Positions 18,514 through 59,265 of a stretch of DNA of 64,000 nt are shown piece by piece. Numbering within the stretch: position 1 is the first letter of the stretch; each line of letters opens with the position of its first letter. The DNA is from Thermus sp. 2.9. GTDB taxonomy: Bacteria; Deinococcota; Deinococci; Deinococcales; Thermaceae. The position numbers were made by a program, and so were the translations under genes. A model generated the notes under the pieces. It made no database searches and had not been told where the DNA came from. It worked only from the letters and a program-made list of their open reading frames with translations. The stretch is from assembly GCF_000794385.1 (NCBI RefSeq), contig NZ_JTJB01000003.1:124001-188000 (forward strand). Reading direction: 5' to 3'.

Positions 18514-18579
18514 CTATGCGGACCGCAGGGCGCCCCCGGCGGGATAATAAAAGCCGAAGTAGCGCCCTGGTCTCCGCAT
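18514..18579 (-). CDS. Phe/Tyr leader peptide of the aroF-tyrA operon (21 aa)
   Basis: A 21-codon frame starting ATG 18577-18579, with GGGGG four bases upstream, and ending TAG 18514-18516. The peptide begins MRRPGR, then YFGFYY, then PAGGALRSA: five aromatic codons (TAC, TTC, TTT, TAT, TAT at codons 7, 8, 10, 11, 12) in a row of six. TTT and TAT are unusual in this GC-rich genome. Codons 4-6 form attenuator segment 1 (CAGGGCGC, 18562-18569), pairing with GCGCCCTG (18526-18533), extended by ATGCGGA with TCCGCAT. A ribosome stalled on the aromatic codons would cover segment 1 and free segment 2 for the antiterminator. The role is inferred from this architecture. Confidence 0.8.
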   Translation of the reverse strand: MRRPGRYFGFYYPAGGALRSA

Positions 18580-57511: not shown

Positions 57512-58930
57512 TCAGCGCGCGCCCACCACGCCGAAGACCTCCCGGGCGTCGGCGATCTCCCCGGCCACCGCCGCCGCTGCCACCATGAGGGGGCTCATGA
57601 GCACCGTGCGCCCCCTGGGGCTTCCCATGCGCCCTTTGTAGTTGCGGTTGGAGCTGGAGGCGCAAAGCTCATCCCCTTCCAGGCGGTCCGGGTTCATGGC
57701 CAGGCACATGGAGCACCCCGGGTTGCGCCACTCAAACCCCGCCTGGCGGAAAATCTCGGCGATCCCTTCCTCCTCGGCCCGCTTCGCCACCCACTCGGAG
57801 CCCGGCACCACCAGCGCCCGCACCCCCTTCTTCACCTTGTGCCCCTGGAGGTGGCGGGCCACCTCCCGGAGGTCGGAAAGCCTGGCGTTGGTGCAGCTTC
57901 CGATGAAGGCCACCTGGATGGGCACCCCCTTGATGGGCTGCCCCGGCCGAAAGCCCATGTAGGCCAAGGCTTCCTCGGCCACGGGGCGCTCCTCCTCGGG
58001 AAGCTCCTCCAAGAGGGGGATGCGCCCGTCAATGGGGATGGCCTGCCCCGGGGTGATGCCCCAGGTGACCGTGGGGGCGATCTCCTCGGCGCGGAAGGTG
58101 ACCACGTCGTCATAGGCGGCGTCGGGGTCGGAACGCCAAGCGAGCCACCTTTTCTTGGCCTCCTCCCATTCGGCCCCTTTGGGGGCGTAGGGGCGGCCCT
58201 CGAGGTAGCGGAAGGTGGTCTCGTCGGGGTTCACGTAGCCCACCCGGGCCCCACCTTCAATGGACATGTTGCAAAGCGTCATGCGGCTTTCCATGTCCAT
58301 GGCCTCCACGGCGCTCCCGCCGTACTCGTAGGCGTACCCCAGGCCCCCCTTCACCCCCAGGTGGCGGATGATGTGGAGGATCACGTCCTTGGCGTAGACC
58401 CCAGGGGCGAGCTTCCCCTCCACGTTGATCCGCCGCACCTTGAGCTTTTGGGCGGCGAGGGTTTGGGTGGCGAGAACGTCCCGCACCTGGCTCGTGCCGA
58501 TGCCAAAGGCCACGGCCCCAAAAGCCCCGTGGGTGGAGGTGTGGGAGTCGCCGCAGGCGATGGTCATCCCGGGTTGGGTGAGGCCAAGCTGGGGCCCGAT
58601 CACGTGGACGATGCCCTGGTTTCCGCTCCCCAGGTCAAAGAAGGTGATGCCGTGCTCCTTGGTGTTTTGCCGGAGGGCGTCCAGCATGCTCTGGGCCAAG
58701 GGGTCTTGGAAGGGCTCGGTGCGGTCGTGGGTGGGGACGATGTGGTCCACGGTGGCGAAGGTGCGGTGGGGGTAGCGCACCTTGAGCCCCAGGTCCTTCA
58801 GCATCCCGAAGGCCTGGGGGCTCGTCACCTCGTGCAGGAGGTGCAGGTCTATGAAGAGCTGGCTCTGCCCGTTTCTGAGCTTCCTCACCTCGTGGGCTTC
58901 CCAAACCTTCTCGTAAAGCGTTTTTCCCAT
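57512..58930 (-). CDS. leuC: 3-isopropylmalate dehydratase large subunit
   Basis: 472 residues of the aconitase superfamily. Cluster cysteines are in [14 protein letters not shown] and [13 protein letters not shown], with [14 protein letters not shown] for the active site. It starts [16 protein letters not shown] with a GGGAGGGA site immediately after the attenuator U run. First structural gene of the leu operon; expression should depend on the leader peptide upstream. Confidence 0.96.
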
Positions 58931-58944
58931 GGTTCCCTCCCTAT

Positions 58945-58976
58945 AAAAAGCCCCCCGGGTCCTTGGGGCCCGGGGG
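58945..58976 (-). terminator. Attenuator terminator of the leu operon
   Basis: On the minus strand CCCCCGGG (58969-58976) pairs with CCCGGGGG (58952-58959), with a short loop, followed by five T (58945-58949), 15 bases before leuC. The ascending arm CCGGGCCC can alternatively pair with GGGCCCGG in the leader gene. Confidence 0.82.
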
Positions 58977-58993
58977 AAAGCGGAAAGGCCTCC

Positions 58994-59041
58994 CTAGACC
59001 GGGCCCGCCCGGTCTAGGTCTAGCAGAATGCCCCGCCGCAT
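58994..59041 (-). CDS. Leucine leader peptide of the leu operon (15 aa)
   Basis: ATG 59039-59041 to TAG 58994-58996 encodes MRRGILLDLDRAGPV. Three of 15 residues are Leu (CTG, CTA, CTA), the CTA codons being unusual in this genome, with Ile (ATT) and Val as well. The last codons form a perfect 11-bp hairpin with the bases after them: CCTAGACCGGG-CGGG-CCCGGTCTAGG (58993-59018). A ribosome waiting at the CTA codons covers the first arm and lets GGGCCCGG pair with the terminator's ascending arm. Function is inferred from this arrangement. Confidence 0.78.
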   Translation of the reverse strand: MRRGILLDLDRAGPV

Positions 59042-59049
59042 TGCCCCCT

Positions 59050-59079
59050 AGCCTAAGGGTTTCGGGGCCCTTTGGTCAA
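59050..59079 (-). promoter_or_regulatory. Promoter of the leu operon leader
   Basis: -35 TTGACC (59074-59079), 18-base spacer, -10 TAGGCT (59050-59055), then 8 bases to the leader ATG. Same spacing as the aroF leader promoter. Confidence 0.7.
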
Positions 59080-59136
59080 GGTGGGATTTCGGGGAAGGGG
59101 GTGGAAGGGGGCTCCTTGGCTGGAGAAGGGGCCAGC

Positions 59137-59178: not shown

Positions 59179-59265
59179 GCCGGGGTGGCGGAATTGGTAG
59201 ACGCGCATGATTCAGGGTCATGTGCCCGCAAGGGCGTGCGGGTTCAAGTCCCGCCCCCGGCACCA
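59179..59265 (+). tRNA. tRNA-Leu (anticodon CAG)
   Basis: Acceptor arms GCCGGGG and CCCCGGC with discriminator A and encoded CCA (59263-59265). The anticodon stem CATGA/TCATG holds loop TTCAGGG, anticodon CAG, reading CUG, a major Leu codon in this genome. A long variable arm (GTGCCCGCAAGGGCGT) marks a class II tRNA, and the T arm has GGTTCAAGTCC. It lies between the leucine attenuator and trpS. Confidence 0.95.

Follow-up and report, generated by a model that had tools for sequence, protein, structure and literature searches.

The leucine genes of Thermus sp. 2.9 appear to be controlled by a leaderless, ribosome-mediated transcription attenuator, which would set expression of leuCDB and the following genes down to ilvD by reading the supply of leucyl-tRNA through CUA codons; we give this reading a probability of about 0.87. 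Its parts, their conservation, the mutual exclusion of its hairpins, and the coevolution of two pairing regions come from sequence, comparison, and folding, and from these we infer the start site, ribosome stalling, termination, and the response to leucine.

The leader and the genes behind it

Inspection of the window (the whole stretch of DNA that was analyzed, 64 kb) placed all parts of the attenuator on the minus strand, from 59079 to 58945, upstream of leuC. A sequence-only reading of this DNA had proposed a leucine attenuator here, and the promoter it named, TTGACC/TAGGCT, is present, with a -35 element at 59079 to 59074, an 18-nt spacer, and a -10 element of the form TANNNT at 59055 to 59050. 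Behind the promoter lies the leader open reading frame (ORF) MRRGILLDLDRAGPV (59041 to 58994), 15 codons long and closed by a TAG stop. Three of its 15 codons specify leucine, two of them as CTA, just as that reading had described: CTG at codon 6 (59026 to 59024), CTA at codon 7 (59023 to 59021), and CTA at codon 9 (59017 to 59015). The 11-bp leader hairpin (1:2; CCTAGACCGGG/CCCGGTCTAGG, 59018 to 59008 and 59003 to 58993) is real, and its first arm covers the last CTA, each base of which pairs with the TAG stop; codon 7 falls outside the stem. The alternative 8-bp pairing was likewise recovered: region 2, GGGCCCGG (59006 to 58999; leader nt 36 to 43), matches region 3, CCGGGCCC (58973 to 58966; nt 69 to 76), without a mismatch, and region 3 overlaps the 5' arm of the terminator. 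The predicted intrinsic terminator (3:4; stem 58977 to 58969 and 58959 to 58951, T-run TTTTT at 58949 to 58945) does precede leuC; the distance from its T-run to the leuC ATG at 58930 is 14 bases rather than the 15 originally counted. A Shine-Dalgarno-like GGGAGGG for leuC (58941 to 58935) sits 3' of the T-run, outside the terminator.

Generic promoter and terminator scans of the window reported neither the promoter nor the terminator of the leader, probably because TAGGCT matches TATAAT at only three of six positions and the terminator has a 9-nt loop. Folded as a single sequence, the leader was modestly more stable than its shuffles (z = -2.06).

Two features went beyond the sequence-only reading, namely, the 8-nt distance of the ORF from the -10 element and the predominance of CTA, a codon rare elsewhere, among its leucine control codons. 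The 8-nt gap was found here and in all 28 rule-found Thermus-type loci, and it measures roughly 5 to 10 nt in relatives. With the -10 element so close to the ATG (8 nt), transcription would be expected to begin at that codon or a single base ahead of it (an A, 59042 to 59041), and the leader transcript is thus predicted from sequence to be leaderless, with a 5' untranslated region of 0 to 1 nt. A G-rich stretch 2 nt before the leader ATG lies mostly upstream of the predicted start and, for this reason, would not be expected to serve as an ordinary ribosome-binding site. Such a start would fit the phylum, in which leaderless genes were put at about 39% over five Deinococcus-Thermus genomes (available text of PMC3160421) and -10 boxes that adjoin ORFs are common, according to a 2025 paper (PMC12340547); the available main text of the latter contains neither the term "leader peptide" nor "attenuat."

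The downstream run, all on the minus strand, comprises leuC (58930 to 57512; TIGR00170), leuD (57500 to 56895; TIGR00171), leuB (56898 to 55861; TIGR00169), a Uma2-family gene (55864 to 55322; PF05685), a second, weakly Uma2-like gene (55325 to 54879; below the Pfam cutoff), a short-chain dehydrogenase (SDR) gene (54882 to 54148; PF00106), and, last, ilvD (54151 to 52484; TIGR00110). Apart from the second Uma2-like gene, each match lay above its cutoff, and LeuC, LeuD, LeuB, and IlvD were named by NCBIfam cutoffs. An 11-nt gap separates leuC from leuD, and overlaps of 4 nt join the genes at the other five of the six junctions. The order leuD, leuB, SDR gene, ilvD was kept in 10 of 10 relatives examined. 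The overlaps and conserved order support a single transcription unit, short of proving it, as the sequence-only reading had supposed for the seven-gene run. The two Uma2-type genes inside it (55864 to 54879) are variable or missing in relatives.

On the opposite side of the promoter, a tRNA-Leu(CAG) gene diverges from leuC (59179 to 59265, plus strand), and among the 27 loci L001 to L027, 23 have such a gene no more than 1.5 kb upstream of leuC. In 13 loci, the divergent -35 boxes abut as CGTCAAGCTTGAC, an arrangement in which the tRNA-Leu(CAG) and leuC promoters may compete.

Conservation of the leader and its CTA codons

The sequence-only reading had named comparison with relatives as a check on itself and absence of the leader frame from them as grounds for giving it up; the frame proved to be present throughout the genus (27 of 27 genomes) and across most of the phylum. 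In a first set, regions upstream of leuC were scanned for TANNNT, a gap of 5 to 10 nt, ATG or GTG, and an ORF of 8 to 40 codons, with no selection for leucine codons. A short leaderless ORF was present in 51 of 56 loci, and all 51 ORFs contain CTA; every genome of the genus was positive, with at least two CTA codons each. One Thermus-type locus (L026) escaped the rule and has its ORF by eye; its -10 reads CACGCT and contains no TANNNT box. At a second locus (L048) the contig ends, and the first-set rule found no such leader before leuC in three relatives of family f5 (L052 to L054).

A second set of 46 upstream regions was fetched after the pattern was known and scanned by a slightly different rule (-35 matching at least 4 of 6 positions, gap of 5 to 11 nt, ORF of 8 to 45 codons). 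This gave an ORF in 42 of 46 loci and a CTA-containing ORF in 40; L366 and L391 have an ORF without CTA, and L374, L375, L387, and L397 have no ORF. The same rule matched 20 of 1,840 shuffles and 3 of 46 opposite strands; of 290 window tiles, it matched only one, the tile with the leu leader itself. Joining both sets, with their slightly different rules, a CTA-bearing ORF was found by rule in 91 of 102 loci upstream of Thermus-type leuC.

A strict rule (-35 matching at least 4 of 6 positions, TANNNT, 7 to 10 nt, ATG, ORF of 8 to 40 codons) returned a CTA-bearing candidate at 48 of 52 leuC loci compared to 0 of 2,080 dinucleotide shuffles. Applied to both strands of the 64-kb window, it left two candidates only, the leuC leader and an amino acid leader at 18579 on the minus strand. 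A scan of genome contigs with the LeuC of the window gave matches mostly from Verrucomicrobia and cyanobacteria, and these were used as the outgroup control. Of 80 named LeuC loci, the 74 outside the phylum gave no strict-rule match with CTA, and five of the six from within it carry a CTA-containing ORF. Such leaders were also present, found by eye, in two family f2 genomes whose LeuC is only 37 to 39% identical; a wider search for leuC of this type yielded two genomes only. The loci are related, so counts of leader-bearing loci are not independent events. As judged by these sequence comparisons, the leader layout is old and common to the Thermus group.

Trueperaceae-like leaders (L041, L045 to L047, L371 to L373, and many of L377 to L395) share a conserved peptide around RRRLRVI..RQT. 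This conservation exceeds what control codons would need, and a role for the nascent peptide or a constraint on the RNA is possible.

CTA accounts for 86 of the 128 leucine codons in 49 distinct leader ORFs (three of them located by eye), and each ORF has at least one. Elsewhere the codon is scarce, with 15 of 405 leucine codons in nine of the ten window genes (ilvD left out) and 5 of 988 in 26 leuC genes. Across 26 leaders aligned together (alignment A1), the CTA at codon 7 and that at codon 9 never change, in contrast to the variable codons 6 and 8. The genome has leucine tRNAs with anticodons CAA, CAG, GAG, UAA, and UAG, each represented by a single gene in the tRNA set scanned (L337 and L399 are the same UAG gene). 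By ordinary wobble rules, CUA needs the tRNA with the UAG anticodon. Theory singles out CUA as the best leu control codon in Escherichia coli (available text of PMC1183508). Because the leu and ilv leaders here share the enterobacterial preference for CUA, in a distant lineage with five single-copy leucine tRNAs, the theory of selective charging could be tested there.

The RNA switch and its alternatives

The three hairpins 1:2, 2:3, and 3:4 of the leu leader are mutually exclusive. To compare regions 2 and 3 across clades, we swapped partners among 15 hand-picked clade representatives of 21 (22 before L011, which has no terminator by our rule, was dropped). The leaders' own 2:3 duplexes averaged -18.7 kcal/mol compared to -14.9 kcal/mol (standard deviation, 0.69) for permuted partners (P = 5e-5), and leaving out the Thermus-type representatives L001 and L026 gave a P value of 1e-4. 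At single loci, L038, L040, and L058 were no better than the median swap and L029 was hardly better. Judged by this pairing test, regions 2 and 3 coevolve across clades. Together with the frame kept in relatives and the invariant CTA at codon 7, this coevolution supports the attenuator that the sequence-only reading had suggested.

Folding with a modeled ribosome, masked on the assumption of a 12-nt edge, behaved as a switch would. With the 5' arm of hairpin 1:2 masked by a ribosome at the last CTA and the terminator half made, the 2:3 helix formed in 29 of 29 Thermus-type leaders, and with no ribosome hairpin 1:2 formed in 28 of 29, in both cases at 37 and 65°C. Among non-Thermus-type leaders at 37°C, for some of which (e.g., L028 and L035) the automatic choice of helices is doubtful, the modeled switch was seen in 19 of 23 and the no-ribosome hairpin in 15 of 23. 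Hairpin 1:2 hardly varies within the genus, with both-sided change at 1 of 11 pairs (columns 29/44). The RNAalifold consensus on alignment A1 recovered it well and the terminator poorly, the latter because MAFFT staggered the terminator arms. The intrinsic terminator stands before the first structural gene; two Thermus-type leaders, L011 and L026, have only a weak T-run.

Put together, these elements suggest the following course of events. RNA polymerase would start at the AUG of the 15-codon frame or one base before it, and a ribosome would consequently load directly at the 5' terminus of the RNA. When charged tRNA-Leu(UAG) is short, the ribosome would stall at CUA codon 7 or 9 and mask the 5' arm of hairpin 1:2, leaving region 2 free to pair with region 3 before the second arm of the terminator exists; transcription would continue into leuC-leuD-leuB-Uma2-Uma2-SDR-ilvD. 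With ample leucine, the ribosome would get to the UAG stop, which adjoins region 2, and cover that region; the terminator 3:4 would form, and transcription would end before leuC. If the leader were not translated at all, hairpin 1:2 would hold region 2 and the terminator would again form.

Other explanations assign the same parts different roles. The control codons might sense nothing specific, with CTA kept as the reverse complement of TAG to build the hairpin and the leader answering to translation generally. Codon 9 invites this explanation, since its CTA pairs exactly with TAG in hairpin 1:2, which could alone account for the conservation of that CTA, and 40 of the 49 leaders do stop at TAG. 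Codon 7, however, is invariant outside the stem, and the nine leaders that stop at TGA or TAA all keep CTA, and on these grounds we reject pure stem pairing as the cause of CTA conservation. CTA is likewise the preferred leucine codon in the ilv leaders of the genus (71 of 116 leucine codons in 23 distinct leaders), other leaders carry the codons of their own pathways, and we regard an unspecific response as improbable. It is less probable still that a fixed terminator lowers leuC expression constitutively next to an incidental short frame: the terminator is strong in silico, but the frame and its control codons are conserved, and regions 2 and 3 coevolve. We also see very little chance that the leader acts on translation, by coupling or reinitiation at leuC, instead of on termination. 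Only 63 nt separate the leader stop from the leuC start, and reinitiation between leader and gene has been proposed at short distances (about 65 bp at most), this phylum included, in the available text of PMC4833913. Against it, the leuC Shine-Dalgarno sequence lies 3' of the T-run and is not contained in any of the hairpins, the hairpin that precedes it is a GC stem with a T-run, and the same source gives longer distances as needed for attenuation.

Control of the leader or promoter by a protein or metabolite (repressor, riboswitch, or T-box), with the ORF as a relic, is hardly credible. A palindrome, TTGGTATACCAA, does lie between the -35 and -10 elements in 23 Meiothermus-like loci (L028, L030, L031, L033 to L038, L165, L353 to L356, L358, and L360 to L367, of which L165 and L365 are one genome), and a repressor may add control there. 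The palindrome is absent, however, from all Thermus-type loci fetched, and its confinement to Meiothermus-like loci led us to discard the idea that control rests mainly on a conserved repressor site. A T-box for leu was rejected as well, since an RF00230 search of the genome gave one match, which precedes a gene that is presumably ileS. Rfam at the gathering score detected no riboswitch and no match in the window to Leu_leader, which we take to be the family of the enterobacterial leu leader. Up to an E value of 10, 31 Rfam matches fell within 58900 to 59100, none of them the enterobacterial leu leader; these subthreshold matches look like chance, and we set aside an Rfam riboswitch or leader family. 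Ribosome-mediated attenuation remains our preferred reading of the leu leader.

Sister leaders and known systems

The second strict-rule candidate in the window is a leaderless Phe/Tyr leader, MRRPGRYFGFYYPAGGALRSA (18579 to 18514, minus strand), before a DAHP synthase gene (18454 to 17420). A leader of this kind was present in 25 of 25 genus loci. In the window, its GGGGGCGCCC could pair with GGGCGCCCCC of the terminator as a perfect 10-bp antiterminator. Genome-wide, a simple search pattern (promoter, 7 to 10 nt, ATG, short frame) marked only 14 places, and the reversed pattern marked none. Pathway-matched leaders are included, before homocitrate synthase, ilvB, a LysJ-like transaminase, and aspartate-tRNA(Asn) ligase; the rest include long leaderless genes and other short frames.

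Before ilvB lies a leaderless Leu/Ile/Val leader, MRLALALSLALVLIVGPAGGRV, again with CTA (L245/L072; G000:C24, about 23480, minus strand); it was present in 24 of 24 genus loci, and some candidate was present in 29 of 30 ilvB loci. A Trp-containing leader precedes trpE in 17 of 30 loci. The leaderless frame before aspartate-tRNA(Asn) ligase, MRPRFLNNG, has nine codons and an Asn-Asn pair (L248/L252; G000:C31, about 92496 to 92358, minus strand), and related Asn-containing leaders occur before this gene in 29 of 30 loci; the Asn leader hairpin is without a T-run in the species of the window and has one in a family f4 relative. Before the LysJ-like transaminase gene we observed a seven-codon frame, MAVRGKT, with one Lys codon and a terminator-like hairpin (L247; G000:C30:56263, minus strand); the match to the transaminase family stops near residue 277, which would fit a broken frame. 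A further leaderless frame, MLGPLPSSPKR, has three Pro codons (L241; G000:C10:14743, minus strand) and precedes a gene that we take to encode an MgtE-like magnesium transporter, the Shine-Dalgarno region of which lies within a possible hairpin.

The homocitrate synthase gene has the leaderless frame MLARGKKLGRRGVG, with two Lys codons (L238; G000:C1:139724, plus strand) and the same promoter-to-ATG layout as the leu leader. A Thermus thermophilus lysine attenuator, with a short leader and two Lys codons before homocitrate synthase, is said to have been described by Tsubouchi et al. in 2005, and MLARGKKLGRRGVG is probably that attenuator. Unlike the leu leader, it senses lysine and serves another operon.

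On balance, we favor the view that amino acid synthesis in the Thermus phylum is governed by a long-established group of attenuators, all leaderless (leu, ilv, aro, lys, trp, and asparagine), whose first sensed codons lie near the 5' end, that Asn codons before aspartate-tRNA(Asn) ligase belong to this group, and that the leu and ilv leaders came to CUA independently of the enterobacteria. If so, the most unusual member would place the tRNA-dependent asparagine pathway under the control of the very Asn-tRNA that it makes, and the independent choice of CUA would be a natural second test of the theory that control codons are set by isoacceptor charging and not just by their rarity.

Leaderless attenuation as a kind is already known and is otherwise familiar from Actinobacteria; the more novel part here is the phylum-wide leaderless set with its Asn member, which suggests that such attenuation is in general use in another phylum as well. 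For a much-used thermophile, the leu leader also offers a specific, testable mechanism of leucine operon control. A 1998 paper reportedly deals with Thermus leuCDB. We found no Thermus leu attenuator in the literature searched, which lacked most subscription papers, and we make no claim of absence.

Among known systems, mycobacterial leaderless polycysteine ORFs are amino-acid-responsive attenuators, to go by the title of Canestrari 2020. They share the leaderless short-ORF design, again by title, and differ in amino acid (cysteine) and in lineage. Mycobacterial cysteine genes are elsewhere referred to as being under translation attenuation (available text of PMC13236596). The ilvBNC operon of Corynebacterium glutamicum is alike in starting one nucleotide before the leader start codon and in having a 15-codon leader, no ribosome-binding site, and alternative hairpins (available text of PMC11857589, citing Morbach 2000). 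It belongs to another phylum, with another operon and amino acid set, and the leader peptide is unrelated. Also comparable is leuL of E. coli and Salmonella, a short Leu leader with CUA control codons that acts by transcription attenuation on leu genes downstream. Four CUA codons are reported for E. coli leuL (PMC8384417) and three for Salmonella enterica serovar Typhimurium (S. typhimurium), where changing CUA to CUG lost or reduced sensitivity (PMC1183508, citing Carter 1986; both sources as available in part). Thermus leaders, in contrast to the four CUA codons of E. coli, have two to three leucine codons each. The frame described here, of 15 codons with two CTA, is predicted to lie at the 5' end of its RNA without a ribosome-binding site, differs in sequence, matches no Rfam leader, and precedes an operon, leuCDB...ilvD, that lacks leuA. 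We conclude that the Thermus leu leader and leuL are likely convergent.
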